Shown piece after piece: positions 3,381 to 62,293 of a DNA stretch of 64,000 bases. The position numbers were made by a program, and so were the translations under genes. The DNA lies in contig JAOFTV010000003.1 of assembly GCA_028045305.1 (NCBI GenBank), forward strand, positions 62,001-126,000, given 5' to 3'. This DNA comes from Opitutales bacterium (GTDB taxonomy: Bacteria; Verrucomicrobiota; Verrucomicrobiia; Opitutales; Seribacteraceae). Below the pieces are notes generated by a model. That model ran no database searches. It saw nothing but the letters and a program-made list of their open reading frames with translations, and was not told where the DNA came from. The stretch's first letter is position 1; each line of letters opens with the position of its first letter.

Positions 3381-3511
3381 GTGGTGAAAAGAAAATTCAT
3401 ACTTCGAATCTCTGATCGGAGTAAAGACAAACACCCAAAACCTGATAATTTATCCATCCTTTTGCTTGCCAACTCCGAATACCTGTCGCGTACTTTGTCG
3501 GAAACAACTTT

Positions 3512-6941: not shown

Positions 6942-6945
6942 AATC

Positions 6946-10514: not shown

Positions 10515-10518
10515 GAGC

Positions 10519-42282: not shown

Positions 42283-42981
42283 TCACTTACGAAGAACACG
42301 AATTAAAAGATCATCCCATAGCATTTCTTGTTCAGCATAGGAGAAACCCCACAATACACACTTTCCAGCAAGATTGTTTATCACGGAATTCATGGCAGCT
42401 ACCTGACCCGACTGAGCAGACTCCAGCCTTACCTCCAGTCTTATCAGCATCTCTGCCTTATCAGTTTGCTCGACAATCTGTAAACATACACGCATCCACT
42501 CCCTGGAGTCCCAGTCTATATAATTCTCATGTTTCCAGTAATCCAAGTAAGATAAAATACCAGTTTTAGAAACGGGATTCAGCCGGTAGTGAATTCCCCT
42601 TATACCCCCAATGGCTCCTGAGAATGCACTATGTCTTCTGCTTTTTACCCCACCTAGGCAGGAGAAGGACAACTCCATCGTTTCAGTTCCCAATCGGGGG
42701 CCAAATAAAAACCCATGCTCCCCCACCGGATTACCCGGTAAAACAAGGCATTTTCGACCATCTCGTCGGTGTACCGAAAAACTTCCTTCCAAAATAAAAA
42801 AATCTTTAGGTAGCTTACCGTCCTCAATTTCTTCAAAATTCTGCTCGTAGATGACCTTCCAGTCCTTCTCTCTTTTTTGGGGAGAAGTGCCATGGGCTTT
42901 ATCAAAAAAAGATACGAGAAACACGCACAGAAGACTTAAAAAAAACCTATTCACGGCTAGATAAATTACTACTTTCCTCAT
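42283..42981 (-). CDS. Secreted concanavalin-like (DUF1080-type) domain protein
   Basis: A 232-residue protein with a signal peptide. The mature part begins 'WKVIYEQNFEEIEDGKLPKDF', then 'GSFSVHRRDGRKCLVLPGNP' and ends 'YAEQEMLWDDLLIRVLRK', the pattern of a jelly-roll domain like that at the end of the beta-propeller protein at 62.3 kb. It is the last gene of the long minus-strand array and overlaps the FtsX gene. The GTG at 42954 would give a shorter signal peptide starting MNRFFLSLLC and is a realistic alternative start. Confidence 0.65.
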   Translation of the reverse strand: MRKVVIYLAVNRFFLSLLCVFLVSFFDKAHGTSPQKREKDWKVIYEQNFEEIEDGKLPKDFFILEGSFSVHRRDGRKCLVLPGNPVGEHGFLFGPRLGTETMELSFSCLGGVKSRRHSAFSGAIGGIRGIHYRLNPVSKTGILSYLDYWKHENYIDWDSREWMRVCLQIVEQTDKAEMLIRLEVRLESAQSGQVAAMNSVINNLAGKCVLWGFSYAEQEMLWDDLLIRVLRK

Positions 42982-45900
42982 TTAATCCCAAGCGAATTGC
43001 CAAAAATACAGAAAAAACCGTCACGCAGATTAAGGTAACACCGAAACTGAGCACGCCTCCCAAATAAAAATTACCCGAACTGCTCAAAATAGCGGGCAAG
43101 ACACCAAGCAATCCAGCCCCAAACCCAATCGATAGCCCCCAAGCGACAAGGCTTATATTTTCCTTCCATGCGAGTACTCTCAAGCGTGCTAAGGAATACC
43201 CAATGGCATTCAAAATTGCCTGCTCTTTTCTTCGCTCCCACAAATTTCTCATAATTGCGACAAGCAAACCAAAAGTGCCAAGAATAACACCGAGACCACC
43301 AAGAAATTGAAAGATCGAAAGATAAGTATTTTCCACTTCTTTGAGCCTGTGTAATCTCTCTTGGATCAATTGCGTTTCGGGACCGTAATTAAAAAGCCTG
43401 TCTTTTAAATGATTCAAAACAATTTGCTGCCGGTCATTTTCCACATCTATCCAAAAATTCTGGTATCCTCCCCTTCCGGGAAAAAGTTTAACCCAATGCT
43501 CTTCAGCAAAATACAAGCCGCCCTGAAGAAAGCTGCCCTTAACAACTGCAGCAATCTGGATTTTAAAAGTTTTTCCCTCGCCATTGGTATACGGAATCTG
43601 GTCACCAACTTTCTTCTTCAACGCCCACATTAAAGTATTTTGATCAACCAAAGCAGGGTAGATGCCGTCTGCGATTGGCTTGCTCAATGCAGACCAGTTT
43701 CCTTCCACAAATTCAAAGCGTCCACTCAGCTGACCCAATGGAACTCCATACAGCGGTGGAGTCTGGGCCTGGTTCAAGTTTAAACAACTTGCATCATCTC
43801 CATCCTTTACCCGTAAGGAAACCAAAGAGACACCGTTCATGATACCCGGGTCTAGGTCGAACAATGCTTCTGCTTCGGTCCCGAGTAAATCATCATACAA
43901 AGGAAGGCTGGTCTTTAAAATATGAGAAAATCCACCCGTGCCTGAGTCTAGCTTAGAGCAGTCTTCAGCTGCTTTTTGTCGAAATGCCCCTGCCCCAATT
44001 ACCAAAAAGGAACCAACAGCAAGAATGCCGACTACGATTAACTTCCTACCAATCCTGCGATCCAATTGTAGCAGAAATTTGGGTTCGCCCACATTATGTT
44101 TGGTTTTTTTGTGGAACCTAAAAAATCCGCCCAACCCAGCCGTAAGGACCAAGGCACCAACTCCAAAAAAAGTTGGCCCCACAGGCAATTGATTAAGCCA
44201 ACCAAATATGGAAAGCAAAATTGCAGTCGTCCATATCGCGACTAAAAACCATCTTCCCCCATCCGGTTTTTTAATTTCAGAACCAGCACAGGGTACGATA
44301 AACTCTCCTCCATTTAACAATGCCACGGGTGCTTGCCTGGATTGTTTTCGACTGACCCAGGCCAAGGTGAACAAACCCATGCAAAAACTACCAAGAGCCC
44401 CAATTCCAATCGATTGTGCCGTTGGAGCGTAAATGATTTGAAGGTTGGAAACCGCCCCGCCCCATGACCCTCCCAGCATCGCCAAGATTCCTTTTCCAAA
44501 AAACCATGCCCAACCTAAACCCATCAGGGAGCCAAGCAAACATACAACACCCGCTTCGGCCCAAGTCAGTACTTTTACCCGCATAGGACTATAACCTAGT
44601 GCAAAAAATAGGCCGACCTGCCGGTTTCTTTGCTCCATAGAAAAACCAAAGAGCATCGCACTTAAAGATACGCCAGCCAGGATCACAAAAAATCCAAAAG
44701 CAAGAAAGAGCTGGCTAAAATCAACCGGGCCGGATACCGCATTTTTCGCATCATTTTTCAATTGAATAATGCGTAAGCCTGAATCTGACGACCTTAACTT
44801 TTCTTGCAAATCAGTCTGCAATCTCTGGGCTGATCTCTTTCCGAATGCCCGAAGGCCTGTATGGTTCCCCCAACGATTCCCCCACATTTCCTGGGCTGCC
44901 AAAAGAGATACAAATGCTTTGGGACTCCCACGAAAATCATCCCAGTATTTCTCATCTTTTGGCCTAATCTTATACTTAATCGGAATACCCGTATCCCATT
45001 CTCCGCAATTTTCTGCATCACTTAAGCCCGGGAACCTTGGAGTCCAATCGCTCTCTTGCCCAGAATCAATTTTTTTAGGCATCGGCAATATTTTTCCGAC
45101 CTCAAATGACTCTAAGCTTTGCAATAATTCTCGGCTTTCTCCGACGGTGTAATACTGCAGGCTCACACGATCTCCAAGACTAAGATTTAAATCTTGTGCA
45201 GCCCATTGGTTTAGGGCGATTTGATCGTCTGACCACTCTCCGGAAAGCAATCCTTCCGCTCTCGGCTCCACTCCACAAACCATCGAGTATGGAATTATTG
45301 ATCTACTCTGGTCCTGCCCTATTACAGGCTTACTTATAGCGTTAACTAAATAGGTAAATTCACCTTGTAAACTTGGATTAATTTCCATGGCCTTATCTAC
45401 GATAGAATCTGAGAGAAAAACACTACGTGTGCGAAGACTCCAGGCTTCATTTGACTGTAGTTTTTTTATATCCAGACCAGCATCCGATAAAGTCCATACG
45501 CGTTCCATGTTCTCTTCCAAAATATTTTCGGGCTCATTGGTTAAGACAAGGAGTAGATTGGCAAAATCCGTTCGTTCTCCAACCGGGTCAAAGTTAACAA
45601 ACATATCCTCTTGCAACAGGGAAAGGGGGGCAAAGACGGTTCGAATCGGCTCCATGTTTGCTCGCAAAGAAAATTTTCCCAACTGGGAAGAGTTTAATAC
45701 TCCCCCAAATGGACGATTCCAGGAAACAAAACGGGCATCACGTTCTCCAGACAAGGGAGCATCACGCGAAAAAAGACTTGGCTCTTCCACTCTTAAAATC
45801 ATTCGGGTGCCAGCTTTTACTCCCAACTCATTGGCAAGATCTGGGCTGAACCAAAAATTTTGCTGCTTAAGATCAGGTGCTTGTTTGGGGTCCTTCGCAA

Positions 45901-46264
45901 AATCAAAAAAACGATCGTCTATACCCAAGACCTGTACTCCACTTGCACGAACCTTACCATCCGGAGATGCCAGGGTTCCCTGAGTCATCAAGACTGGAGC
46001 AAATTGGGCAGACTCATTACCTTTCCAACCGGCCTGCATACGATTGGCCAAATCGGCATGAAAATACCCATCCTCAGATATAAAAAGGTGAGTAATTTTT
46101 CCAATACGTTCGAGGGCCTGGTAAGACAAGCTGGCCCGAACTGAATCTCCCACTGTCAAAGCACCCACAAGGATCATGGAGGCAAGGGCCGCCCCCAAAG
46201 AGGTCCCCAAGTGTTGTCGCTTGGAATATTTTAAATTGGCGAAAACAATTCGCCAGATCCTCAT
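42947..46264 (-). CDS. Large FtsX-like ABC permease (YbbP-like)
   Basis: A 1105-residue permease with one N-terminal helix and two FtsX modules, as in YbbP: the first around 'FSMEQRNRQVGLFFALGYSPMRVKVL', the second around 'RNLWERRKEQAILNAIGYSLARLRVL'. The large extracytoplasmic domains lie between. It starts in the stop of the LolD-like ATPase gene (ATGA). E. coli YbbA-YbbP is encoded beside the TesA thioesterase; a thioesterase of a different fold lies close by here too. It probably extracts or moves a hydrophobic compound made by the neighbouring enzymes (inference). Confidence 0.88.
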   Translation of the reverse strand: MRIWRIVFANLKYSKRQHLGTSLGAALASMILVGALTVGDSVRASLSYQALERIGKITHLFISEDGYFHADLANRMQAGWKGNESAQFAPVLMTQGTLASPDGKVRASGVQVLGIDDRFFDFAKDPKQAPDLKQQNFWFSPDLANELGVKAGTRMILRVEEPSLFSRDAPLSGERDARFVSWNRPFGGVLNSSQLGKFSLRANMEPIRTVFAPLSLLQEDMFVNFDPVGERTDFANLLLVLTNEPENILEENMERVWTLSDAGLDIKKLQSNEAWSLRTRSVFLSDSIVDKAMEINPSLQGEFTYLVNAISKPVIGQDQSRSIIPYSMVCGVEPRAEGLLSGEWSDDQIALNQWAAQDLNLSLGDRVSLQYYTVGESRELLQSLESFEVGKILPMPKKIDSGQESDWTPRFPGLSDAENCGEWDTGIPIKYKIRPKDEKYWDDFRGSPKAFVSLLAAQEMWGNRWGNHTGLRAFGKRSAQRLQTDLQEKLRSSDSGLRIIQLKNDAKNAVSGPVDFSQLFLAFGFFVILAGVSLSAMLFGFSMEQRNRQVGLFFALGYSPMRVKVLTWAEAGVVCLLGSLMGLGWAWFFGKGILAMLGGSWGGAVSNLQIIYAPTAQSIGIGALGSFCMGLFTLAWVSRKQSRQAPVALLNGGEFIVPCAGSEIKKPDGGRWFLVAIWTTAILLSIFGWLNQLPVGPTFFGVGALVLTAGLGGFFRFHKKTKHNVGEPKFLLQLDRRIGRKLIVVGILAVGSFLVIGAGAFRQKAAEDCSKLDSGTGGFSHILKTSLPLYDDLLGTEAEALFDLDPGIMNGVSLVSLRVKDGDDASCLNLNQAQTPPLYGVPLGQLSGRFEFVEGNWSALSKPIADGIYPALVDQNTLMWALKKKVGDQIPYTNGEGKTFKIQIAAVVKGSFLQGGLYFAEEHWVKLFPGRGGYQNFWIDVENDRQQIVLNHLKDRLFNYGPETQLIQERLHRLKEVENTYLSIFQFLGGLGVILGTFGLLVAIMRNLWERRKEQAILNAIGYSLARLRVLAWKENISLVAWGLSIGFGAGLLGVLPAILSSSGNFYLGGVLSFGVTLICVTVFSVFLAIRLGLNEESSNLSSRE

Positions 46265-46956
46265 GAATCCACCTTTTTTAAATCTCCGTCATCAAAGGCC
46301 CAAACCTCTTCCATTTGATTGGCCAGAGACACGGCATGGGTCACGACAACCAAGGTAGTTTCTTTTTCCCGATTCAGACGAACCAACAACTCCATCAAAC
46401 TTTCTGCTTTTGCTTGATCAAGAGCACCAGTTGGCTCATCCGCCAATAGCAGCCTCGGCCCATTGATCAGGGCACGGGCTACTGCCACTCGTTGTCTCTC
46501 CCCGCCGGATAATTGACCTGGTAAATGATTTGCCCGCTCAGACAGACCAACCTCATGAAGAAGTTCCAATGCCTGATTTTGCAAGGCCTGTCCACTTGCA
46601 CCCCCATGACCTGCTAAAGCAGGAATCATAACGTTTTCCAACGCGGAAAGTGCGGGCAGCAAATGGTGAGATTGAAAGACAAACCCTAGCGTACGGTTAC
46701 GAAAACAAGCCGCCTCCTTAGGAGACTGTTGGTGAACATTTTTACCTTCTATTAACACCTCGCCACCCGTAGGACGGTCCAACCCGCCAATCAGGTTGAG
46801 CAAAGTACTTTTACCCGATCCAGATGGCCCAACAATGGCCAAAGATTTTCCTGCCTCTACCAACAAGTTAAGATCGGAAAACACCAGACTGGAAGATCCA
46901 CCCAGGGGAGCGGAATATGCCTTCGTTAAATTTTTAATTTCTAAAAAATTGCTCAT
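46261..46956 (-). CDS. LolD/YbbA-like ABC transporter ATP-binding protein
   Basis: A 231-residue ATPase with Walker A GPSGSGKST, signature LSGGERQR and Walker B LLLADEPTGALD. The family is LolD/YbbA/MacB. It overlaps the FtsX-like permease gene by 4 bases and lies 9 bases after the ligase gene, so it is part of the long operon. It supplies ATP-driven movement to the large permease. Confidence 0.93.
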   Translation of the reverse strand: MSNFLEIKNLTKAYSAPLGGSSSLVFSDLNLLVEAGKSLAIVGPSGSGKSTLLNLIGGLDRPTGGEVLIEGKNVHQQSPKEAACFRNRTLGFVFQSHHLLPALSALENVMIPALAGHGGASGQALQNQALELLHEVGLSERANHLPGQLSGGERQRVAVARALINGPRLLLADEPTGALDQAKAESLMELLVRLNREKETTLVVVTHAVSLANQMEEVWAFDDGDLKKVDS

Positions 46957-46965
46957 TTATAGATG

Positions 46966-48249
46966 TTAATGCTTTGATTTTTTATCGGGGCGTATCCATC
47001 GTTTTGCCTTCATCTCAAACCTTGGAAGTGCACCTTTGGACAAACTTTCCACGGGAATTCTCAAGGAATAGGCATCCCGTAAGGAATCCTCCAAGGCTCG
47101 GGCAATCTCCAGATCACACTCAGCTCGTATGAAAACCTCATTCATTTCCCGGGACTCTTCAATGACTACCTGGTACTCATAAATTTCTGAAAATTTTCTG
47201 ACAATGGCATCCACCCCGGAAGGGTAAAGGTTTACCCCGCGTATGACCAACATATCGTCCGTCCTGCCCAATATACCACCAACTAGATCGAAGGTAGGAA
47301 ACCCTAATGCATCCACTCCCCGATTTACACGGACTAAATCGCCCGTACGATACCGCAAAACCGGAGAACCCGTACGACCTAAGGGAGTCAGGATCAATTC
47401 CCCAAGTTCCCCATCATTCACCGGTCGTGTGCTTTCAGCATCAATCACCTCGGCATGATAAGAATCCAATAAAATTCGTAGACCACCCTCCCCGCCAGGA
47501 ATCTCATGAGCAACGGGTCCCACCTCGGTCATTCCGTAATGGTCATAAAGCAATGATTTGCCACCCCATCCTGTGTCCACTTTGTTCCGGTTAATTTGCT
47601 GACTTCCTCCACATTCTCCTGCCACAATTATTTTCTTTAAGGAATTTTCATGCAAAGGAATACCGCATTCATTTGCGGTATCTATCAAGCGCATGGCATA
47701 AGTAGGTGTACAAAAGAGAAATTCCACATCCTCTTTCACAATTGTAGCCAGCCTTGATTCGGTGGACTGACCGCCACCCGGTATACATATACATTCCTTT
47801 TGAATCGCCGCTTCATAGGCTGTCCAGAACCCTAGGAACGGACCAAAGGAAAAAGCAAAGAAACAACGGGCCCCCCGCCCGACTCCTGCCTCTTCGAATA
47901 TACGGTCCCAATTTCCCAGCATCCATTTCCAATCTTCATCGGTATCCATCCAGGTTATCGGATCGCCACTAGTTCCACTGGTTCTTGAAAAACGCAGGTA
48001 TTTTTCTATCGGATAGGTAAGGTTTGATCCGTGTTGTGGATTTGAAACCCGATCGTTTTCTATTTCCTGTTTAGTGGTAAGCGGACAAATTTTGGAAGAC
48101 TCCTCAAATCCCGACCATAATTTCCAATCCGACAATTCTCGGAAACGAGCTCTCTGAAAAGAATTATTTTGATTAATCTGTTCGAGGCATGATTGGAAGT
48201 CCGCCCATCTCTTTGTCTCCCACCTAAGGACTGCCTCTGCTTGATCCAT
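46966..48249 (-). CDS. PaaK-like adenylate-forming ligase
   Basis: A 427-residue member of the phenylacetate-CoA ligase branch of ANL enzymes. The phosphate loop is 'RFSRTSGTSGDPITW', the substrate region includes 'LYDHYGMTEVGPVAHE', and 'LRYRTGDLVRVNRG' and 'GRTDDMLVIRGVNLYPSGVD' are the AMP-binding and hinge motifs. It activates a carboxylic acid, plausibly an aromatic one given a chorismate-lyase-like gene 4 kb upstream. It is the second ligase of the array and differs from the one at 57.6 kb. Confidence 0.9.
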   Translation of the reverse strand: MDQAEAVLRWETKRWADFQSCLEQINQNNSFQRARFRELSDWKLWSGFEESSKICPLTTKQEIENDRVSNPQHGSNLTYPIEKYLRFSRTSGTSGDPITWMDTDEDWKWMLGNWDRIFEEAGVGRGARCFFAFSFGPFLGFWTAYEAAIQKECICIPGGGQSTESRLATIVKEDVEFLFCTPTYAMRLIDTANECGIPLHENSLKKIIVAGECGGSQQINRNKVDTGWGGKSLLYDHYGMTEVGPVAHEIPGGEGGLRILLDSYHAEVIDAESTRPVNDGELGELILTPLGRTGSPVLRYRTGDLVRVNRGVDALGFPTFDLVGGILGRTDDMLVIRGVNLYPSGVDAIVRKFSEIYEYQVVIEESREMNEVFIRAECDLEIARALEDSLRDAYSLRIPVESLSKGALPRFEMKAKRWIRPDKKSKH

Positions 48250-48287: not shown

Positions 48288-48803
48288 TCAGGAATTGGAT
48301 GCCTCTACTACAGCTGCAGGCTTGGGTGGCTTAGGGGCATGCTTGGTAATCATATATCCACCGATAGCCGCAAGAGCGATACCAAGAACGAAAGGCCAAC
48401 GAACAAATGCCCAGTTCCCATCTTTTGTTGTGCTAACCAGGGCATTAACCATAGGGGCACCAGCAAAAATAATAGACATGATAACCGGAACAAAGGCGGG
48501 ACTGGGCATTTTACCGAAGGCAAGCAATACTCCCAAGGCTCCGATCGCTCCAAGAGTTCCTGCCAACAAGGACCATTGCCAACCTTTAATTGGATAAGTC
48601 CAAAAAAAGATATTTGCTCCCTTTAACTTGAGAATGATCAACGGTGCAATTACAGCGGTTAAAAAGTAAGCAAGTCCAACCCAAAGAAAGGCCATAAGAC
48701 GACCGTTTTCCTTATCTCCCATACTGGTGGACCCGACGTGCATGCAAACACCATAGGTGCCCCAACAAACCACAGTTAACAAAGCGAAGTGTAAATAGTG
48801 CAT
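48288..48803 (-). CDS. Small DMT/EamA-like membrane protein
   Basis: A 171-residue protein with about five membrane helices ('HFALLTVVCWGTYGVCMHVG' near the start, 'FVLGIALAAIGGYMITKH' at the end), half the usual length of a drug/metabolite transporter, and therefore possibly a dimeric transporter of that superfamily. The C-terminal tail is rich in Lys and Pro. It lies 38 bases before the ligase gene in the array. A transport role is inferred. Confidence 0.65.
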   Translation of the reverse strand: MHYLHFALLTVVCWGTYGVCMHVGSTSMGDKENGRLMAFLWVGLAYFLTAVIAPLIILKLKGANIFFWTYPIKGWQWSLLAGTLGAIGALGVLLAFGKMPSPAFVPVIMSIIFAGAPMVNALVSTTKDGNWAFVRWPFVLGIALAAIGGYMITKHAPKPPKPAAVVEASNS

Positions 48804-48863
48804 TTTCTTACTTTCTAATGTTAGCCCATTTCAGGCAAATTGAAATTTAAATACACTGAGAAT

Positions 48864-49298
48864 TTAATCTCCTGCTTGCATCACCTTTGAAGAAAAAATC
48901 TCGGGAATTATAATTGGGGTCATCGATCCACTTTCCTGGTCAAAGGATACACATGCGGCAACTGCTTCTCCAACCGCGGCTTTAACGCGTTCACCATCTT
49001 CGGTTTTCCAAAATTGAAAGGCATAGGTGATGGAGCGGTCTCTCATTTCAGTGACAATTAATCTGATCTCCACTTTCTCCTCAAATCGCAAGGGGCGTTT
49101 GAAACGGCAACTTGCCTTGACGCGTGGCCAGCCAAAGCGGCCATTCTCGTCTTCCATATCGACGGATAGGCCAACACTGCGCAAAAACTCGTGCTCGCAG
49201 ATTTCCATCCAACGATAGTAGTTGGTGAAGTGCATGATGCCAGCGAGGTCGGTCTCGGAAAACTCAACCCGGCGGGTGATGGAAAATTCGGATGCCAT
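48864..49298 (-). CDS. 4HBT-type acyl-CoA thioesterase (YbgC-like)
   Basis: A 144-residue hot-dog fold thioesterase. 'VEFSETDLAGIMHFTNYYRWMEICEHEFLRSVG' is the classic 4HBT/YbgC motif with catalytic Asp17, and 'VKASCRFKRPLRFEEKVEIRL' continues the fold. It hydrolyses a thioester such as an aroyl-CoA. Located between the glycosyltransferase gene and the DMT-like gene in the long array, it fits an aromatic CoA pathway. 4-Hydroxybenzoyl-CoA is the founding substrate of the family but is not proven here. Confidence 0.9.
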   Translation of the reverse strand: MASEFSITRRVEFSETDLAGIMHFTNYYRWMEICEHEFLRSVGLSVDMEDENGRFGWPRVKASCRFKRPLRFEEKVEIRLIVTEMRDRSITYAFQFWKTEDGERVKAAVGEAVAACVSFDQESGSMTPIIIPEIFSSKVMQAGD

Positions 49299-49311
49299 AA
49301 TGAATATTTAT

Positions 49312-50607
49312 TTAATCGGTACGAAGGATGGGTGCGAGGATGTTATTGACCAAAAAATTGGCCAACTTTTCGTTGGAAAACTTTTGCCTTACCTCTTCCC
49401 TGCCTGTTTGTCCAAGGTTATGGGCACCCTTACTATCTGTAAGGAGAGTTGTGAGAGATTTGGTTAAAGAACTCGGATCATTTGAAGGATAAATCAAACC
49501 ACCACCAGTATCTTTGATGATCTCCGGGAAAGATCCGTGATCGGGTAAGACCACGGGGATGCCCGCAGCCATTGCTTCAATTACATAAAGTCCGAATGCT
49601 TCTGGGATCCGTGCAGGCACGCAAAATAATGAAAGCGTTTGAAGGAAATGGATTTTTTCAATTCGATTTAAATTGGTCTGAATTTCAAATGCACTGCTTA
49701 ATCCTGCGGCAGAAATTTTTCTCTTTTGTTCTTCAAGGTAAGGCTTGTTCTCTTGAGGCAAAGTACCAGCCACCGATAATTTCAAACTTGAATGATCACC
49801 CGATTTCTTAAGCTCGATGAAGGCATCGATTAATAGATCCAGCCCTTTTTCCGGGCAGAGACGGGCAAAGTAGCCAAGAGTAGGAACCTCGGGAGGGTTC
49901 AGAGCGGAAGAATATCCATTCATAGATATACCATTGGGGAGATGATAGATCTTTCCCTCGGGTATTTGCAGTCGCTTACTCATCAACTTGGCAAAGGAAG
50001 AACTGGGAGATATACATCCGTCCAAATTCCTGGCATCAGTTCCAAGTATATTCCATGCCTCTTCCCGGAATTCAGGAAGCAAGGAATCCAGGAATCCATC
50101 CTCTCCCTGTAAAAAAGCAAGTGTTGGAACTTTTAATTCTTTACTCACCACCCTTCCTACACCGGCAAGCATTACGGTAGAAAGTAAGAGAACATCGGGC
50201 ACCCCATTTGTACGGAACCAGTCGGTCACTTTATCAACCTCTTTGGCAAGCGGTCCGTTTTTCCCGCGAAAAGTAGATAAGGTAATCTCACCAAGTTCAC
50301 GGGCAGTGGTCATGCCCTTCCTGTTCGCTGCCCAGCGGAGGAGGCCCTGCGAATCAAATAATCGATCGATCCATTTCGGAGTTTTACGAAAGATGGGAAA
50401 CTTGTGCTGCAGATAAACATTGATACCTCCAAAAAAAATTGGACTTTTAAGAACTGCCGGTTCTTCGTCCAAAAAATGGGGAAGATATGTCGGCAGTACG
50501 GTTACATCATGTCCATGATCAATCAGGTAGCGGGCCAGGGAATTATCCCGCATGCATACACCGCAGTAATAATTGCCCGTACCGGGCGTAAGGAAAGCGA
50601 TCCTCAC
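49312..50607 (-). CDS. GT4 family glycosyltransferase
   Basis: A 431-residue GT-B enzyme. The N-terminal domain begins 'MRIAFLTPGTGNYYCGVCMRDNSLARYL', a form frequent in planctomycetes and verrucomicrobia; the C-terminal domain has 'LGYFARLCPEKGLDLLIDAFIEL' and 'PEAFGLYVIEAMAAGIPVVLPDHGSFPEII' with the EX7E nucleotide-sugar motif. It overlaps the flavin enzyme gene by 4 bases, so the two are probably translated together. It likely adds a sugar to the product of the locus or to a lipid. Confidence 0.92.
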   Translation of the reverse strand: MRIAFLTPGTGNYYCGVCMRDNSLARYLIDHGHDVTVLPTYLPHFLDEEPAVLKSPIFFGGINVYLQHKFPIFRKTPKWIDRLFDSQGLLRWAANRKGMTTARELGEITLSTFRGKNGPLAKEVDKVTDWFRTNGVPDVLLLSTVMLAGVGRVVSKELKVPTLAFLQGEDGFLDSLLPEFREEAWNILGTDARNLDGCISPSSSFAKLMSKRLQIPEGKIYHLPNGISMNGYSSALNPPEVPTLGYFARLCPEKGLDLLIDAFIELKKSGDHSSLKLSVAGTLPQENKPYLEEQKRKISAAGLSSAFEIQTNLNRIEKIHFLQTLSLFCVPARIPEAFGLYVIEAMAAGIPVVLPDHGSFPEIIKDTGGGLIYPSNDPSSLTKSLTTLLTDSKGAHNLGQTGREEVRQKFSNEKLANFLVNNILAPILRTD

Positions 50608-51869
50608 CCGGAGGTCTTGGCCAATCCGTGCTCCACCGGTTCGGGCAGGTGGGCAAGGTCAGACATTGAATCGAAAAGTTCCTTAAAATCTTGATCGTCC
50701 ACATTGCCGATCAAGCAATCGGTTAGAGAGGAGCGCAGATGATCTCCACGCTTGACCAAATCTCCAAAGCTAAATTGGGGATCATAAAATGCATAAACGA
50801 TTTTTCTCATCGTCTCGATCGAGGACTGCATACGCTTTCCATATTGCTCGAAAGATTGTGCATTTACTGGGCCTGCAGAAAGAGCCTTATCTACTTCATC
50901 GGCAAGCATCGTTCCGCTTTTTAATGCGAGAAATACTCCAGAGGAAAAAACAGGATCAAGAAAGCCAAGGGCATCTCCAGCAAGGACCAATCCATCCATT
51001 GAACAATATTTATTACGATAAGAATATTCTCCAGTTATGCGGTATTCACCTGTCTGTTCCGCACCTTGTAAATGCTCTTCAATCCATGCATTGTTTTTGA
51101 TTTCACGCTGGAAAATTTCTGCATGGTCCTTGGTTGAACCGTTAAATAAGTAATCCCGCTCAGCTACGATTCCCACGCTTACCATATCTCCACTTAATGG
51201 AATATACCAAAACCAGCCCTTGCCTGGCAGATAGGCCACGGTGGTTGCCCCTTCATCCAATCCGGGATCTCTCTTGGCATTTTTATAATAGGTCCAGAGG
51301 GCAACTTTTTTAAGTTCCGGATCGCGAACCATCCAGTTTTCTTTGTGCGCAGCAAAACAATCTCTGCCGGATGCATCAATAACTACCGGAGCAGTTAATT
51401 CAAGATCACCAAATTCTTGTGAACTTGCTTTGATCCCCGTAACTTTATCCCCCTGTTTGATCAAGCGATTGGCTTTGGTTTGTTCAAGGACAGAAGCTCC
51501 ATTTTCACGGGCTTTATCTAGGATCATTTGGTCAAACTCTTCCCGCCATACCTGCCAGGTGGTGGAAGATGGATGATCAAAGTGTTGGAAAAAATAAAAG
51601 GGTTGGGAAAGAAAACCGTCTTCCCTGACAAATTGGACACAATATTTTCGTGGATTTCCAGATTCCATTAATTGATCGATCAATCCCAAGCGTTCCAGAG
51701 GAAAATAACAAAAGGGCATCAGGGATTCTCCCACATGGTAACGGGGAAACTTTTCTTTCTCTACTATTAATACATCCCTGCCCTTTTCAGCGAGCAAGGC
51801 ACCTGTGGTCGAGCCAGCTGGTCCGGCTCCCACCACGATGGCATCGTACTGTGTCTTTAATGAAATCAT
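50604..51869 (-). CDS. Flavin-dependent halogenase-like / FAD monooxygenase
   Basis: A 421-residue FAD enzyme. The dinucleotide-binding motif is 'DAIVVGAGPAGSTTGALLAE', and the segment 'FPRYHVGESLMP' is typical of the tryptophan-halogenase-related family. The WxWxIP motif reads GWFWYIPL, and the FxxPxxSxG motif is FLDPVFSSG around residue 303, both associated with flavin-dependent halogenases and absent from ordinary monooxygenases. Related proteins in aryl polyene loci can have other roles, so halogenation is not certain. It overlaps the glycosyltransferase start by 4 bases. Confidence 0.82.
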   Translation of the reverse strand: MISLKTQYDAIVVGAGPAGSTTGALLAEKGRDVLIVEKEKFPRYHVGESLMPFCYFPLERLGLIDQLMESGNPRKYCVQFVREDGFLSQPFYFFQHFDHPSSTTWQVWREEFDQMILDKARENGASVLEQTKANRLIKQGDKVTGIKASSQEFGDLELTAPVVIDASGRDCFAAHKENWMVRDPELKKVALWTYYKNAKRDPGLDEGATTVAYLPGKGWFWYIPLSGDMVSVGIVAERDYLFNGSTKDHAEIFQREIKNNAWIEEHLQGAEQTGEYRITGEYSYRNKYCSMDGLVLAGDALGFLDPVFSSGVFLALKSGTMLADEVDKALSAGPVNAQSFEQYGKRMQSSIETMRKIVYAFYDPQFSFGDLVKRGDHLRSSLTDCLIGNVDDQDFKELFDSMSDLAHLPEPVEHGLAKTSG

Positions 51870-51927: not shown

Positions 51928-52482
51928 CTAAGCGGGTGGTAAAATTTCCACGATCTTTGCAATCGTCTCATTTGTACGGGTAACAATTTGATTGCTCCTG
52001 CCATACAGAGTATCGGGCAGATCCATTCCAAAAGCTTCTCGAATCGAAACATCTGGGCTGATGCGAAAGAATCCACGCAAGGAACAGGAATAAGGAATTC
52101 TTCCCTGATTAAGAATGGTGCCAAGGGGCATTTCCCCTGCAACTACTGCATCCCTCGCCACCTGAGGTAACTGTGCTAATTGAATTTCGATCGCTCCGTA
52201 TTCCACCGCCTTGACCGTTGGACCATCCGTTTCTAAAATCACCTCGCGAAAATACCCTTTTCCATCGTTGGAGGAACGCAACCTTCTTACTCCAATGGAG
52301 GTTCGGTGATGATTTTCCAACCGTGTCGTCATATCCCCCTCATGGGCAAGAAGCTGTCGATAAGGCTCGGGTAATTCTGTGTGTTCAATCGTTTGATAAT
52401 CCAAACCGGGAAGTCCACGTGCCCGCCTCATTAAAGTTAAGGGGTGGAGCAAGCCGGGAAAATTTTTTGAGGGATCAGCCAT
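51928..52482 (-). CDS. Chorismate lyase-like (UbiC/DUF98-type) protein
   Basis: A 184-residue protein that follows the UbiC layout: 'PYRQLLAHEGDMTTRLENHH' for the first substrate segment, 'YFREVILETDGPTVKAVEYG' for the strand containing the active-site Arg (Arg79), 'GEMPLGTILNQG' for the LG.TPLG segment, and a final Glu (Glu179) in KIVEILPP as in UbiC LTELFLP. It would cleave chorismate to 4-hydroxybenzoate and pyruvate, or bind a related aromatic acid. The start is ATG 52482, since the ORF-track start is TTG. Its position inside a CoA-ligase, thioesterase and flavin-enzyme array supports an aromatic acid. Confidence 0.78.
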   Translation of the reverse strand: MADPSKNFPGLLHPLTLMRRARGLPGLDYQTIEHTELPEPYRQLLAHEGDMTTRLENHHRTSIGVRRLRSSNDGKGYFREVILETDGPTVKAVEYGAIEIQLAQLPQVARDAVVAGEMPLGTILNQGRIPYSCSLRGFFRISPDVSIREAFGMDLPDTLYGRSNQIVTRTNETIAKIVEILPPA

Positions 52483-52490
52483 ATGCAAGG

Positions 52491-53828
52491 TTAGACGTAA
52501 CGGGCATCCTGATGTTGGGGAAGAAAAAATTGATCAAGCAAAGAATCCACTCTTAGTAGGGCTTCCCGAGAAAGTGTCCATTCCTCCCCTTCCATATTTA
52601 AAATTCCCTGTTCTTTCCAATCCTTAAGAATTTCGCCGTATCTTTCTTGCAGACTGATCCCAAACTTTTCCAGGAAATAACGCGGGCGAATCTTTCCCAG
52701 TTTCCATTGTAATATAAATTCACGAATAAATCGTTCATCCTCAGTGGTAAGCAAAGCTCTGCGAAGTACCGACTCCCCACCCTCAATGGTGGAACAATAA
52801 TCTTCAAAGTGGGTAAGGTTTTGATAGTGGATACCTCCGAGATGCCCAAAAGATGCAACTCCCAGAGCAATCATATCGGCACCTCCCCAAAGTTGATCCC
52901 GATAAAGAAATTTGGTGCGCTGTGGATTTTTCACTGCGGTACAGGTACTGGTCACAGAATAACCCGCAGACTCCAAACGACTAAAAGCCTCGGTCACCCA
53001 GCGTCTCTTGGTTGGCCAATCTGCCACTGGGGCACTGAGTTTGCCCTCTTCTTTCATCGTTTGATAAATAGTGGTATTGTAAGGAACTTCCATTTGATAG
53101 ATGGTCACACAATCGGGTGCCAGTTCCACCACCCGTTCTATACATTCCGACCAATTTTCATCTGTCTCCTCGAGCATACCGGCAATCAGATCGACATTTA
53201 TATTTTCGATCCCCGCATCCTTTGCCCACTGGAAAGCACGAAAGACTTCTCCAGAACGGTGAGCCCGTCCATTGGTTTCCAATACATGATCAGAAAAATT
53301 TTCGATTCCCAAACTCAGACGGGTGACTCCAAAGTCTCGAATCGCCTGTACTTTTTTTTCTGTCAGGGTACCGGGCTCGCACTCAAAGGTAACCTCTTCC
53401 GCTTCATCCCAGGGCAAAATCGCTTTCATACGATCCGTAAGTTCGGTTAATTGCTGAGCGGACAAATAGGAAGGTGTGCCTCCCCCAAAATAAACAAACT
53501 TGGGCTTTCTTCCTGCCAGGTAAGGAGAATTGGCATAGGCCTCAAATTCCTTCATCGTGGCATCGAGGTATCTCCTAACATCCGCAGAGTTTTTGTCGGT
53601 GTAGACACGAAAGTAGCAAAAGTGACAACGCTTCCTACAAAATGGAATGTGATAATAAAGCCCAAGGGGTGCCTTTCCCGGAGATGGACTGTTAAGCAAG
53701 GACTCTACACAGGGTAAGTCCTTTTCGTTCCAAAAAGAAAAGGGCGGATAGTTGGCGATGAAATAATTGCCCGCCTTGGTTTCCTCACCAGTTTTCTGAT
53801 CGGGACTATTTGATGTGGAATCGCTCAT
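52491..53828 (-). CDS. HemN/HemW-like radical SAM enzyme
   Basis: A 445-residue radical SAM protein. The cluster motif is Cys64-Cys68-Cys71 (FCRKRCHFCYF), SAM-binding GGGTP appears in 'VYFGGGTPSYLS', and the 'VTFECEPGTLTEKKVQAI' and 'GVTRLSLGIENFSDHVL' blocks match coproporphyrinogen oxidase-like enzymes. The C-terminal HemN domain ('FIREFILQWKLGKI') is present. The relatives include haem enzymes and class C methyltransferases or cyclopropanases, so the reaction is uncertain. It overlaps its upstream neighbour by 4 bases and precedes the chorismate-lyase-like gene. Confidence 0.9.
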   Translation of the reverse strand: MSDSTSNSPDQKTGEETKAGNYFIANYPPFSFWNEKDLPCVESLLNSPSPGKAPLGLYYHIPFCRKRCHFCYFRVYTDKNSADVRRYLDATMKEFEAYANSPYLAGRKPKFVYFGGGTPSYLSAQQLTELTDRMKAILPWDEAEEVTFECEPGTLTEKKVQAIRDFGVTRLSLGIENFSDHVLETNGRAHRSGEVFRAFQWAKDAGIENINVDLIAGMLEETDENWSECIERVVELAPDCVTIYQMEVPYNTTIYQTMKEEGKLSAPVADWPTKRRWVTEAFSRLESAGYSVTSTCTAVKNPQRTKFLYRDQLWGGADMIALGVASFGHLGGIHYQNLTHFEDYCSTIEGGESVLRRALLTTEDERFIREFILQWKLGKIRPRYFLEKFGISLQERYGEILKDWKEQGILNMEGEEWTLSREALLRVDSLLDQFFLPQHQDARYV

Positions 53829-54952
53829 GGAAGCTTATTCATAGTACTAAAGGCATAGAGGTTTCCATCTTCACATCCAACGAAAATCCATTCATTGGCC
53901 ACTGCACAGGTGGATGAGATCGAAGCTCCAATTTCGTAACGAGTAATTATTTCGCCCCCATTCAAATCAATTAAGTAAAGTTTTCCATCCATGGATCCAA
54001 CCACCACTTTCTCGCCTGCAATCACCGGGGATCCATCGATACGACCCCGGGCAGAAAACCTCCAATGTTGCTTGCCAGATTTTCGATTTATAGCGTGCAG
54101 TGCTTTGTCCCGCCCACCAATGATTACAAGATCTTTGGTAAGTGCGGGGGAGGAAAAGTAAGGAAAACTTTTCGGTTCATAAGACCAGGAGATTTTTCCG
54201 CTGTTCAAATCGATCGCCTGTACCGCCCGATCCATATTTCCAACATAGCCAAAGGAATCGTATACCCCTACTGAAGAAGCAATCGGAGCCCCCAGGTCGA
54301 CTTTTTGGGATAGGTTTCCATCCTCCAAAGAAACAACATAGAGTTGAGCATCGCATCCTCCAAATACCACCCATTTTTTATCCCAAATTGCTGGAGTTCC
54401 ATTGACATAATTCAATGTCTTAAACTTCCACGCGATCGATCCATCCTCTGCGTCCACACAATGCACAAAATTATCGTAGCTTCCCAAGAGCACCAACTTG
54501 CGACCAGTTGATGGATGGATGGCAGGGTTTGGAGCCCCCACAATTTCTCCCATGGTTTCATAGGCCCAATTTTGTTTGCCACTTTCTGCATCGAGACAAA
54601 ATAACCATCCATCTTTGGTGCCAATATATACCTTGCCATTATGGACTAAGGCAGGCGCATCCACTCCTAACCCGGTTTCTTTTTTCCATACCACCTGGCC
54701 GGTCTTGGAATCCAATGCATAAAAGATTCCGGTCGGACCACCCAAAAATATTTTTCCGTTCGATACCACCGGGGAGGACTTTAAAAACTTTCCCGCCTCA
54801 AAAGTCCATTCGAGTACCAATTTATCTCCTAATTTTTGTGCTGAGATACCCTGCAGTTCAGAACCTCCTCGATGATTCGGCCAATCCGCTACGCACCAAC
54901 AAGTAAAGATTGAGAGCAAGGTGCTCAAAACGATAAATGATTTGATTTTCAT
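53825..54952 (-). CDS. PQQ-like beta-propeller protein (secreted)
   Basis: A 375-residue protein with a signal peptide (ending near CWCVAD) and seven or so repeats of about 40 residues in the form 'LDSKTGQVVWKKETG', 'LDAESGKQNWAYET' and 'VDAEDGSIAWKFKT'. Such PQQ-like or BamB-like beta propellers often bind proteins or sugars. It overlaps both flanking genes by ATGA, so it belongs to the array. Its role is unclear; it could be a periplasmic scaffold for the alcohol dehydrogenase or a transporter part. Confidence 0.88.
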   Translation of the reverse strand: MKIKSFIVLSTLLSIFTCWCVADWPNHRGGSELQGISAQKLGDKLVLEWTFEAGKFLKSSPVVSNGKIFLGGPTGIFYALDSKTGQVVWKKETGLGVDAPALVHNGKVYIGTKDGWLFCLDAESGKQNWAYETMGEIVGAPNPAIHPSTGRKLVLLGSYDNFVHCVDAEDGSIAWKFKTLNYVNGTPAIWDKKWVVFGGCDAQLYVVSLEDGNLSQKVDLGAPIASSVGVYDSFGYVGNMDRAVQAIDLNSGKISWSYEPKSFPYFSSPALTKDLVIIGGRDKALHAINRKSGKQHWRFSARGRIDGSPVIAGEKVVVGSMDGKLYLIDLNGGEIITRYEIGASISSTCAVANEWIFVGCEDGNLYAFSTMNKLP

Positions 54953-56169
54953 CCTTCGTTTCTATTGTCCGCGTGGACATCAATGGATTGATAGAGTTTT
55001 ATCCAATCACTCTCTTTGATCGGGCGTGGATTAAAGGTACCCGTCCATTGATCGGCCGCATCTTGGGAAAGCTTGGGTAGTTCGGATGCAACACAATCGA
55101 CATCTTCCAAGCTTTTGGGAAGCCCGGCGAACTCGCGCAATCGAATAACTTTTTCGAGAAGCAACCCATTGGCTTGTTGATCGCTTGTGGAAGAATCTGC
55201 AAGCCCGGCAATACGGGCCAAATCGGCATATATTTTCGCACTGTTCAAATCTTCCTGATTATAAGCCATAACTGCAGGCAGGCACAAACCAACCGCCTGA
55301 CCATGAATAACTCCTTTTTGAGCCGTTAGTGGATTAGCAAGGGCATGGGCAGCTCCGAGCATGCTTCGTTCAATAGCCGCCCCCGCATGGGCGGCTCCCA
55401 ATAGCACATGGCCTCGGGCCAGTAAGTCTTGAGGGTCTTTCCATACCGTTTCCAAATTCTTTATCAAATGGACAAAGGCTTGCTGGGCATGACGACCGGA
55501 CAAGTCATTCCGACGCGAGCAAACCGCAGATTCGAGGGCATGGGCCAGGGCGTCCATTCCAGTAGCGGTACAAACGGAAAAGGGTTGGGAAAGGGTAAGC
55601 TCGGGATCCAATAGCGTAAACTTTGGCAAAGCACTAGGATCTCCGCAGGCCATTTTCCGGTGCGTCTGATCGTCAGAAATCAAGGCATACGACTGGCACT
55701 CACTTCCCGTACCTGCAGTGGTAGGAATCGCGATCATCGGGAGCAACGGCTTGGTTGCCTTAGACACACCCCAATAATCTTTCATCGAACCACCATTGGT
55801 CAGGATAAAATTTGCCCCCTTGGCGGTATCAAGTGAACTGCCTCCTCCCACACCAATGATTAGGTCAATCTCCAGTATACCCGCTTTCCGTGCGCATTCC
55901 TGTACACTTGAATCCGTAGGGTTTTCCATTGATTCCTCAAATAAAAATGTACGAATACCAGCCGACTCCAAGGACTTCATGACCTTGTGGGGATGACCGG
56001 CCGAACTTACCCCCAGGTCAGTGACCACCAAGGCACGACTGCCCAATTGCTTCGCGCACTCACCGACTTTTACCGAGGATCCGGGGCCATAAATGACCTG
56101 TTGTTCAGTTGGGTCGCCCAGTGCAAAAAAGGAAGAGTCCAACGATGGAGAGCTGGAACTTTCTGTCAT
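54949..56169 (-). CDS. Iron-containing alcohol dehydrogenase
   Basis: A 406-residue Fe-ADH. The nucleotide-binding part contains 'LIIGVGGGSSLDTAKGANFI' and 'PTTAGTGSECQSYALI'; the metal region has 'TGMDALAHALESAV' and 'GAAHALANPLTAQKGVIHGQAVG'. The Asp and three His ligands are visible, but the second His of the usual HAxxH motif is Asn. The start is ATG 56169 because the ORF-track start is TTG. It should interconvert an aldehyde and alcohol with NAD(P)H. It sits between the aldehyde dehydrogenase-like and beta-propeller genes. Confidence 0.9.
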   Translation of the reverse strand: MTESSSSPSLDSSFFALGDPTEQQVIYGPGSSVKVGECAKQLGSRALVVTDLGVSSAGHPHKVMKSLESAGIRTFLFEESMENPTDSSVQECARKAGILEIDLIIGVGGGSSLDTAKGANFILTNGGSMKDYWGVSKATKPLLPMIAIPTTAGTGSECQSYALISDDQTHRKMACGDPSALPKFTLLDPELTLSQPFSVCTATGMDALAHALESAVCSRRNDLSGRHAQQAFVHLIKNLETVWKDPQDLLARGHVLLGAAHAGAAIERSMLGAAHALANPLTAQKGVIHGQAVGLCLPAVMAYNQEDLNSAKIYADLARIAGLADSSTSDQQANGLLLEKVIRLREFAGLPKSLEDVDCVASELPKLSQDAADQWTGTFNPRPIKESDWIKLYQSIDVHADNRNEG

Positions 56170-56191
56170 TGAAAAGGGAACGGGAAGCAAA

Positions 56192-57628
56192 TCAGGCGGC
56201 CAACCCTATGGATCGACGCTTGTATAAAAATTCGAAGAGGTTGCCTTCATGTGGTTGGTCCCACGATATTTTCATCGTGGAAATAGGCCCAACATTTAAT
56301 CTTTCAATTCTGGGATCCAGGAGCAATTCTCGCTTAAAAGATTCGCTTTTAGTCAGTGCAGAGACGACCAAAGTGGGGCCGATCTTATCAAGCATTTCCG
56401 ATTGTGGAACTTCCACCACGCTAGCATAGGGGCAGAGAAATTCCCGGTTAGCCAAGGGATGTTCGATCGATTCGCAGGCAATAATTGTTGGGCGTAAATA
56501 AGTCCCTCCCTCCGCTTTCACCTGGCGGGGACCATCACGATATGGAGCCGTTGCATCATAAGCTCCAGATTCTAAAAGGTCTGTATCGATTGCAGAATCT
56601 ATCCATTCGGCCATCTTGGGGTTGGCAAATCCAGATAGGACCGCATTAGGATCGTTCATCGCTAAGGGCTTAATCGGGCCGAGTTTCTGCCCAAGGGCAT
56701 CGGCAATTTCCTTTGCATATTTGGGCACAATAATAGCGGATGCATTGATACAACTTCTTCCACCATTATCCGAAATGGAGGCTACTATGAGATCTAGGTA
56801 GTCTGGCCAGTTTTCGATCTCGTCGTCCCCGATCAATACCTTACTAAAACCGGGGCCATGGACTTGTACGCCTGGATTCCCGGCATATTGATCAGTGGTT
56901 GATTTGTCCCCAAAGATGAGTGCCCGGTCGCAAAGACGCAAAATATCAGCCGCTCCTTCATGATCCGTGGGGTAAAACCCAAAGGCTTTCGCAGGACATC
57001 CCGCTTTAATAAATGCCTGCATTAATCGATAAGGTGTCCATGGTTCGTCCTTACCGGGTTTCATAATCACCGGGATTTTCAGGGGGATTGCAGGTAGCCA
57101 AAGTGAATTAACCGCTGGAGAATTGCTGGGCATGACCAGGCCAAGTGCCTTAGTGGTTGGATGAAAACAAACCGGAGAACCAGATTGCTCCCCATATCCG
57201 CGGTCTAATACCTCCACATCCAACCCACGGGTCAATCCATTAAGAATCGTATCCATATGGGTAAGGGCGTGATGGATTTTTTCCATATTCCGACGGACCA
57301 TAATGTGGGGAAGCCCGCTGGTGGATGAAAGAGTCTCTAAATATTCCTGAGGGCTTTGCAGTTCTCCTGCTTCCCCGACAGGTAATTCTTCATGAAGAAA
57401 AAATTCTCCTGCCTGCCGGGAAATTTCCAGAAGTTCGGCAGTCGAAAATTTTTGTAAGGCGGCTCTGGCCTGTCCGACCTCTTTAAGATCTCGGCGGATC
57501 ACTCCTGGGTTTACCTGGCTCAAGGTGGCCCGTACGGACCCATCCCGATAATCGAGCACTTCAGATTGATTAAGGCTGCAGTAAGGCTTGCCCAGGCGCA
57601 AACTTGGTAAGTGGGGTGCTTGTTTCAT
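56192..57628 (-). CDS. Aldehyde dehydrogenase-superfamily acyl reductase-like enzyme
   Basis: A 478-residue ALDH-fold protein. The catalytic Cys is Cys293 in SDNGGRSCINASA, and the cofactor region includes 'GLVMPSNSPAVNSLWLPAIPLKIPVIMKPGKDEPWTP'. The general-base Glu block (ELGG) of ordinary aldehyde dehydrogenases is not seen; 'VHGPGFSKVLI' occupies its place. This points to CoA-dependent or acyl-thioester reduction (LuxC-like), a good match to the ligase that precedes it. The start is ATG 57628, 5 bases after the ligase stop. Confidence 0.88.
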   Translation of the reverse strand: MKQAPHLPSLRLGKPYCSLNQSEVLDYRDGSVRATLSQVNPGVIRRDLKEVGQARAALQKFSTAELLEISRQAGEFFLHEELPVGEAGELQSPQEYLETLSSTSGLPHIMVRRNMEKIHHALTHMDTILNGLTRGLDVEVLDRGYGEQSGSPVCFHPTTKALGLVMPSNSPAVNSLWLPAIPLKIPVIMKPGKDEPWTPYRLMQAFIKAGCPAKAFGFYPTDHEGAADILRLCDRALIFGDKSTTDQYAGNPGVQVHGPGFSKVLIGDDEIENWPDYLDLIVASISDNGGRSCINASAIIVPKYAKEIADALGQKLGPIKPLAMNDPNAVLSGFANPKMAEWIDSAIDTDLLESGAYDATAPYRDGPRQVKAEGGTYLRPTIIACESIEHPLANREFLCPYASVVEVPQSEMLDKIGPTLVVSALTKSESFKRELLLDPRIERLNVGPISTMKISWDQPHEGNLFEFLYKRRSIGLAA

Positions 57629-57633
57629 ATCTA

Positions 57634-58734
57634 TTAATAGACTCCCTCTACAATTTTTTTCTCCATCGCTCCAAACGGACGAATTTCTGCGACCCCATCC
57701 CAAGGTGCTTCGGTCCATGGTTCTCGGCGGATGGCTTCGTCACGCTCCAAAAAACGAGGCATAAAAAATTCCTTGGTTAAGGTAGTTAATTCCACCCTGC
57801 CCCAATGATTATATTCCACCGGTTTTCCGTTACCTGTATCGATCACTCGAAGGACAGCCCGTGGTTGCGGGGCGTAATAAGCAATCGAATAATCATTTTC
57901 TGGCCCAAAGGGATGGTGGCGCGCCAAACCCATCAAGGTATTCCCATAGGTCGGGACAAATCCGATCTTTCCTCCTTCGCATACCTCTTCTTGAAGAAAA
58001 CGGGCATATTGACGATCCATGGTTGTTCCCCCGCAAAATACACCTTTAATCCCGGCGCTTACCAAGTCTCGACGCTCGGCCAATGCTTCTAAAAGTTTGG
58101 GAGTTGTAAAAAGAGCACTGATCTCTCGGTTTTTAATTATGGTAAGTGCCTGTTCAACCACATGATCCATGTAGGCCCGGGCCTGATCAAATTGTTGGGT
58201 AGCGATCAATCGTTTTACCCAGCGCGGATCCAAGTCGACAAAATAACAGGAACAACCTCTTTCATTGGCCAGGTGTTCGATAGCCAGGCGCAATCTTCTC
58301 GGCCCCGTTGGGCCGACCATCAACCAGTAATGATCGCGGGGAAAATGCTCGTCATTGAGAGTCTTCGAGAAGGCGGTGTAATCGATGCGAAAATCATCCC
58401 ATCCAATTCGTTGCTTGGGCATACCCGTAGTTCCACCCGTTTCAAAAATATTAAAAGGTCGGTCGGCAAATGCCTGTGGCACCCAAACTTTATTAGGAAG
58501 GTCCCGTAACCATTCATCTTCAAAGTATGGAAATTTATTACAAAGTTCTGCGAAGGTACGAACCTCTTTCAAAGGATTGAAATCTTGTTCCTTCGCCCAG
58601 TTTAACCAAAAAGGACATCCGCTTTCCGGGGAGAAGTGCCAATTGATCATTTCCTCGACATGTTGGTCGAGATCGTTAGCCGCTTGTTTAATTTGTTCTT
58701 CGCTTACCATAACAGGGATAATTTCTAGTCGCAT
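57634..58734 (-). CDS. Adenylate-forming ligase, PaaK/LuxE-like
   Basis: A 366-residue protein of the PaaK/LuxE group. The phosphate loop is 'NIFETGGTTGMPKQRIGW'; 'GCSCYFVDLDPRWVKRL', 'SALFTTPKLLEALAERRDL' and 'VPTYGNTLMGLARHHP' are family segments. It lacks a full-length C-terminal domain and could be an acyl-protein synthetase or a CoA ligase. Directly followed by the acyl reductase-like and alcohol dehydrogenase genes, it fits a three-step acid-to-alcohol conversion. A downstream ATG at 58710 is an alternative start. Confidence 0.85.
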   Translation of the reverse strand: MRLEIIPVMVSEEQIKQAANDLDQHVEEMINWHFSPESGCPFWLNWAKEQDFNPLKEVRTFAELCNKFPYFEDEWLRDLPNKVWVPQAFADRPFNIFETGGTTGMPKQRIGWDDFRIDYTAFSKTLNDEHFPRDHYWLMVGPTGPRRLRLAIEHLANERGCSCYFVDLDPRWVKRLIATQQFDQARAYMDHVVEQALTIIKNREISALFTTPKLLEALAERRDLVSAGIKGVFCGGTTMDRQYARFLQEEVCEGGKIGFVPTYGNTLMGLARHHPFGPENDYSIAYYAPQPRAVLRVIDTGNGKPVEYNHWGRVELTTLTKEFFMPRFLERDEAIRREPWTEAPWDGVAEIRPFGAMEKKIVEGVY

Positions 58735-60454: not shown

Positions 60455-60735
60455 TGCTCAGAATTCCCCTTTCCTATGTGTTTGGATTTGGTAGAAGGTG
60501 AGCTTTTTTCTTCAGCATATTTTTCCCATTCGGTCGGCCATGCACGAGTGACTGCCCAAACTCCCAAGGCCGAACAGGCGAGGGAAAATAAAGCATGATA
60601 AAATAATCCAGTGGGCATACCCAAGCCGACCAAACTTTCATCAGACCAATTCCAAATGTCTTGATGAAGAAACAGTAAAACCAAAAAGAATAACCAAAAG
60701 GTTCGCATCGGTACAGTTTTGGGATGGACTGACAT
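60451..60735 (-). CDS. Small membrane subunit of the symporter (DUF3311-like)
   Basis: A 94-residue protein with two helices: 'TFWLFFLVLLFLHQDIW' and 'LFYHALFSLACSALGVWAV', linked by 'SLVGLGMPTG', the motif of the small DUF3311-type proteins encoded beside SSS symporters. It ends in a charged cytoplasmic tail. The 4-base overlap with the symporter gene supports a two-subunit transporter. Confidence 0.78.
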   Translation of the reverse strand: MSVHPKTVPMRTFWLFFLVLLFLHQDIWNWSDESLVGLGMPTGLFYHALFSLACSALGVWAVTRAWPTEWEKYAEEKSSPSTKSKHIGKGNSEQ

Positions 60736-62268: not shown

Positions 62269-62293
62269 CGCTTAATTAGAGTACGGAAAATTT

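Follow-up and report, generated by a model that had tools for sequence, protein, structure and literature searches.

What would a halogenase-type flavoenzyme do beside a chorismate-lyase-like gene in a marine bacterium? The window analysed here, a stretch of 64,000 nucleotides, comes from a marine Opitutales-like MAG of 2.3 Mb that is 77% complete. The gene in question (50604..51869, minus strand, ATG start at 51869) encodes a halogenase-type FAD enzyme of 421 aa, here called FDH. The initial annotation had placed a chorismate-lyase-like gene next to it, and this was confirmed: the neighbour (51928..52488, minus strand), which encodes a protein of 186 aa called CL below, lies 58 bases upstream and was matched to the chorismate lyase fold by predicted structure. 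Our preferred answer, held with moderate confidence, is that FDH is a flavin-dependent halogenase of an uncharacterised clade, acting in a carrier-protein-free phenol pathway.

The description of FDH as a halogenase-type flavoenzyme was borne out by its Pfam match, its nearest solved relatives and its residue K75. The match to Trp_halogenase scored 1.9e-25, at 90 bits where the cut-off is 21, and the three stretches quoted in the initial annotation, FPRYHVGESLMP, GWFWYIPL and FLDPVFSSG, were all found in the translation. A sequence search of the PDB returned as best matches FasV (8zop), CndH (3e1t), ChlB4 (7fco), PltA (5dbj), CmlS (3i3l), Mpy16 (5buk) and Bmp2 (5bva), and a structural model based on 19 relatives (pLDDT 85) ranked the same proteins first, with FasV and CndH best. 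One further protein among the nearest in the PDB, 3nix, has no stated function. FDH has the glutathione-reductase-type FAD fold, with its nearest relatives among the halogenases of the CndH/PltA group; it is nearer to this group than to the tryptophan halogenases PrnA/RebH. Identity to any tested halogenase is about 26-30%. With the seven halogenases named above FDH shares the fold, the FAD site, the GESL motif, the tunnel Lys, a WxWxIP-like motif and FxxPxxSxG. The tunnel Lys, whose presence the initial annotation had proposed to check, is K75, which aligned with the Lys of FasV, CndH, ChlB4, PltA, CmlS and Bmp2 in all six halogenase alignments inspected. The Bmp2 residues associated with bromination were set aside as evidence, since they do not reveal which halide is used.

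Both motifs that define halogenases, WxWxI and Fx.Px.Sx.G (PMC12871659), are present in FDH, as GWFWYIP (residues 218-224) and FLDPVFSSG (303-311). An alignment of 19 relatives, reaching down to 57% identity, shows no variation at K75, W219, W221, P306, S309 and G311, nor does a wider tree alignment wherever it covers these positions, so these motifs are more than chance resemblances. Distant FDH-like paralogues from other Opitutales, at about 33% identity, also have the Lys, GWFWxIP and DPxFSSG, a point absent from the initial annotation, and the halogenase-related hydroxylase QhpG keeps the conserved Trp pair (PMC7876137). The motifs thus place FDH in the family and, at the level of sequence, support halogenation without proving it. 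The halogenase reading is preferred because almost all of the closest solved structures, whether ranked by sequence or by fold, are halogenases, and because the tunnel Lys, WxWxIP and FxxPxxSxG are invariant in the clade.

Unlike the seven reference halogenases, FDH belongs to a clade of its own. In the tree this clade is monophyletic (support 1.0) and stands apart from all reference halogenases, and it carries the signature SxPFYFFQHxDHPxxTWQV (residues 88-107), of which Y92, H96 and H99 do not occur in the reference halogenases save for single coincidences. A scan of named genomes recovered at least 439 relatives, of which the best 80 share 56-60% identity with FDH, come from Verrucomicrobiota, Planctomycetota, Acidobacteriota and Armatimonadota of sea, soil, permafrost and groundwater, and have the same neighbours. 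Carriers that are in culture include Haloferula rosea KCTC 22201 and Chthoniobacter flavus Ellin428. The gene set also occurs in Planctomycetota, and is mostly partial in Acidobacteriota and Armatimonadota. An argument from the marine setting, made in the initial annotation, does not hold generally, as the same genes are found in lineages from soil, permafrost and groundwater.

Does FDH halogenate, or does it hydroxylate? Judged from its sequence, halogenation is likely, with hydroxylation as the main rival. FDH would then be a hydroxylase, or another FADH2/O2 oxygenase, of the same pathway, and its action together with radical methylation would give a compound or cofactor resembling a quinol or quinone, and not a halometabolite. 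We regard this as unlikely, with a chance large enough to be weighed seriously. QhpG is a halogenase-like flavoprotein with the Trp pair that hydroxylates Trp, and its NCBIfam model was the second best on FDH (2.8e-36). The identity of 56-60% across phyla is unusually high and, with the soil and freshwater lineages, would suit a core metabolite. A partner reductase of the usual family is also missing: PF01613 flavin reductases, the only family searched, were found neither in the FDH genome (77% complete) nor in 41 of 42 genomes of the family, as against 13 of 14 control genomes that have one. Because of the FADH2 supply, this absence was counted against halogenation, as were the low identity to tested halogenases and the change of H96 and H99 of the signature in the subclade of family f33. 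Against hydroxylation, neither K75 nor FLDPVFSSG varies, which agrees with halogenases and not with QhpG, for which Arg70, Val72 and Trp74 are reported near that site (a comparison by published residues), and every top-ranking solved relative whose function is known is a halogenase. QhpG, moreover, acts on a protein Trp, and there are no QHNDH genes at the FDH locus. A protein-derived quinone cofactor system of the LodB/GoxB/QhpG type was considered on account of the model matches and the adjacent radical SAM gene; it was ruled out, as the conserved set holds neither a target protein nor QHNDH-like genes, and the radical SAM enzyme is HemN-like.

If FDH is a halogenase, what does CL contribute? 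CL itself has no match in Pfam or NCBIfam, nor has any of 16 relatives one in Pfam. Its AF2 model (pLDDT 90) was matched by Foldseek, with probability 1.00, to 2nwi (AF1396/DUF98, 4.3e-9) and to 1fw9 (2e-5), E. coli chorismate lyase with its bound product. In UbiC, 4-hydroxybenzoate is bound by Arg76, by Glu155 and by main-chain contacts from Met34 and Leu114 (PMC7879144). The corresponding residues of CL are R81, E181, M53 and L122, paired by motif because the global alignment (hhalign) is weak, and they are kept in 83 of 83 (R81), 82 of 84 (E181), 81 of 81 (M53) and 78 of 83 relatives (L122, replaced by F in five). The effector domains of GntR/HutC regulators have the same fold, so it is the residues, not the fold, that carry the argument for a chorismate lyase. 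CL is a chorismate-lyase-fold protein in which the product-binding residues of UbiC are kept, and lyase activity is predicted.

The pairing of a chorismate lyase with a flavin halogenase, with 4-hydroxybenzoate as substrate, has a precedent (PMC10579414): Bmp5/Bmp6 and BP608/BP609 of Pseudoalteromonas and Microbulbifer, a chorismate lyase with a phenol brominase, resemble the CL-FDH pair. Bmp5 is a single-component brominase that lacks WxWxI and Fx.Px.Sx.G (PMC12871659), and FDH, having both motifs, is not of this type. The carboxylate also appears to be reduced in our system, not lost as in Bmp5/Bmp6, and the gene set always includes a radical SAM enzyme. An improbable alternative is that FDH halogenates something other than a CL product, with CL acting as a ligand-binding regulator of UbiC/HutC fold or catalysing another reaction. 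The use of this fold as an effector domain would fit a regulator, as would the lack of a sequence-level chorismate lyase match, the weak hhalign result with UbiC and the few relatives in which L122 is F or E181 is K. CL has no DNA-binding domain, however; M53, R81, G123 and E181, equivalent to product-binding residues of UbiC, are near invariant, and CL has twice been fused to FDH. That FDH has left halogenase and oxygenase chemistry altogether, for instance as a reductase or dehydrogenase similar to geranylgeranyl reductases, is very improbable: a model of that family matches (5e-34) and no PF01613 flavin reductase partner was found, but the halogenase-specific Lys and the tunnel motif are invariant, and both its fold and its sequence clearly lie nearer to the halogenases.

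A functional tie between FDH and the chorismate-lyase-like enzyme, suggested from their adjacency, was borne out by an identical phyletic profile and by gene fusions. We sought FDH, CL, the radical SAM enzyme (rSAM), an EhpF-like enzyme and an aldehyde dehydrogenase (ALDH) separately in an even draw of 289 genomes from 153 genera of the phylum, with cut-offs placed in the wide gap between cluster members and paralogues. All five were present in exactly the same 12 of the 289 genomes, which represent 10 genera and six families. Were the 12 genomes independent, one such exact coincidence would arise by chance with a probability of about 1e-21, a figure that their relatedness raises much; given six scattered families, a chance origin is implausible. 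Members of family f33 have the genes at scattered sites or on different contigs, so linkage does not explain the shared distribution. It is nearly certain that FDH belongs to a pathway with CL and its partners. The identical distribution of the five genes defines a new pathway, even if FDH is a hydroxylase, and FDH represents a new halogenase-like clade in this undescribed pathway. A literature search for halogenase, Verrucomicrobia and chorismate lyase together found nothing.

CL and FDH form one uninterrupted reading frame at five loci: L110, L111, L113, L118 and L181 (genome G346). The fusion at L181 has no ATG between its parts, only TTG. At the other four an in-frame ATG precedes the FDH part and no stop codon ends the lyase part, and separate initiation of FDH is possible there. 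In the tree these four group with the unfused Chthoniobacter flavus, apart from L181; the fusion has thus arisen at least twice. Nine genomes were checked because no lyase-like gene lies near their FDH, and in five of them, all Acidobacteriota loci, none is detectable genome-wide. In these five the phenol must have a different origin, or the substrate must be a different one, and the absence of CL was counted against the explanation that we consider best.

The surrounding genes run in the order PQQ3-PQQ2-DUF3311-SSF-EhpF-ALDH-FeADH-PQQ1-rSAM-CL-FDH-GT4-4HBT-DMT-PaaK-LolD-FtsX, all on the minus strand, an arrangement that most of the family shares and that also occurs in two further families of the order. 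Our neighbourhood survey showed no recurrent PKS, NRPS or carrier protein family around the FDH relatives, which again sets FDH apart from the reference halogenases. The EhpF-like adenylating enzyme (57634..58734) matches EhpF (3hgu/3l2k, 8e-45). EhpF and the dehydrogenase EhpG reduce an acid to the aldehyde. The EhpF operon makes a phenazine antibiotic, D-alanylgriseoluteic acid, from chorismate, and EhpF, a homologous ANL enzyme, acts after the chorismate-derived aromatic acid has formed (PMC3175449); in our system, by contrast, there are no phenazine genes, and the proposed substrate is a monocyclic phenol. The ALDH family protein (56192..57718) has an invariant catalytic Cys, C323. As called, its reading frame shares 85 bases with the EhpF-like gene; since most homologues are about 30 residues shorter, translation probably begins inside this frame, about 30 aa downstream. 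An iron-containing alcohol dehydrogenase (FeADH, 54949..56190) follows, and these three genes stay together in several scattered genomes.

The product of the rSAM gene (52491..53828) is HemN-like and has the residues by which class C radical SAM methylases hold two SAM molecules. Its PDB matches are HemN (1olt, 2.9e-34) and NocN (9p2u, 8.5e-26). CxxxCxxC and the residues reported to hold both SAM molecules in NocN/NosN (PMC13266988) are kept in 91-95 of 95 relatives, except that Ser225 is Thr throughout and C133 varies; some of these two-SAM residues occur in HemN too. HemN-like enzymes are known to methylate aromatic rings, as in CoeI (PMC9714029) and NocN/NosN (PMC13266988), class C methylases to which rSAM is similar only at about the level of HemN. 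Downstream of FDH lie a GT4 glycosyltransferase gene with a GTG start (49312..50607), a 4HBT-family acyl-CoA thioesterase (48864..49298; Pfam 4HBT_2, 1.7e-12), a small membrane protein conserved in the cluster (DMT, 48288..48803) and a PaaK-like aryl-CoA ligase (46966..48249; PDB 4r1l, 2.3e-35) whose matches to the NCBIfam models PaaK and FlxY are below cut-off. The sampled motif residues of the ligase and the thioesterase are kept. The set is completed by a LolD-like ATPase with an FtsX-like permease, a possible exporter (42947..46956), a sodium:solute symporter (SSF) with a DUF3311-like protein (58751..60735), a PQQ-like beta-propeller protein between rSAM and FeADH (53825..54952) and two more such proteins at the cluster edge (60751..63781). 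An aryl polyene or flexirubin pathway was rejected, as only the PaaK-like ligase and the thioesterase fit it and no ketosynthase or carrier protein recurs nearby.

How might these enzymes work together? A phenol pathway is suggested because of the fold and residues of CL, the co-inheritance of the five genes, the fusions, and the EhpF and HemN-like precedents. We infer every step, as well as the order, the halide and the product, from genes, residues, co-inheritance and fusion. CL would convert chorismate to 4-hydroxybenzoate. FDH would use FADH2, O2 and halide to form HOX at the flavin, which would pass to K75 and halogenate the phenol ring ortho to the OH; the substrate may be the free acid, or else a thioester that the PaaK-like ligase would form and the 4HBT thioesterase would release. 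The HemN-like enzyme would add a carbon to the ring by radical methylation, the EhpF-like enzyme and ALDH would reduce the carboxylate to the aldehyde, and FeADH would reduce this to the benzyl alcohol. The product may be exported by the LolD/FtsX pair and, in some lineages only, glycosylated by GT4. The initial annotation had read flavin tailoring followed by glycosylation from a 4-base overlap of FDH with the glycosyltransferase gene. The overlap was confirmed from the coordinates (49312-50607 and 50604-51869), and the sequence of events may hold in some lineages; it does not hold generally, since many relatives have no GT4 gene beside FDH, among them four of the five that carry the fusion. 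Only tentatively, we propose a vertically kept, carrier-protein-free pathway that crosses phyla and leads from chorismate to a halogenated, C-methylated hydroxybenzyl alcohol or aldehyde, with the halogenase fed straight by the lyase domain. Two organohalogens were considered as products, planctomycete alichondrichlorin and 3,5-dibromo-p-anisic acid (PMC12078418); no link to either is claimed, and no genes are known for alichondrichlorin.

If FDH is a halogenase, a short, assayable pathway from a common central metabolite to an organohalogen would operate in the marine Opitutales, which are abundant and uncultured, and in many Verrucomicrobia, Planctomycetes and Acidobacteria of soil. Cluster finders that rely on PKS/NRPS signatures would be expected to miss it. 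The spread and conservation of a pathway with a halogenated product would suggest that the organohalogen has a central function in physiology or signalling and is not an occasional defence compound. The fusion polypeptide should then convert chorismate and halide to halogenated 4-hydroxybenzoate.

Further FDH-like genes were seen outside the cluster. In other Opitutales (L163, L166, L167, L169 and L171-L175) two such genes lie side by side where the cluster is absent, and they are of different types, one with GWFW and FSSG, the other with GWWAW and YSPG. Genome G076 has a second FDH copy with 66% identity outside its cluster (L066, G076:C12, 5252-6508), beside a short block of reading frames for desaturase-like and cyclopropane-synthase-like proteins. 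At L074 (G007:C6, about 48517-49778 of the contig), the FDH gene of a close relative is in two frames, split near residue 331; the pieces have 99% and 98% identity, and the split is either an assembly error or a broken gene. Elsewhere in the window, a circularly permuted ATP-grasp protein (10519-11973, minus strand; PF14403, 4.9e-163) has two uncharacterised neighbours in the same direction (8624-9478 and 9528-10559), and genes of oligopeptide-type ABC transporters stand back to back on both strands at 883-8643.
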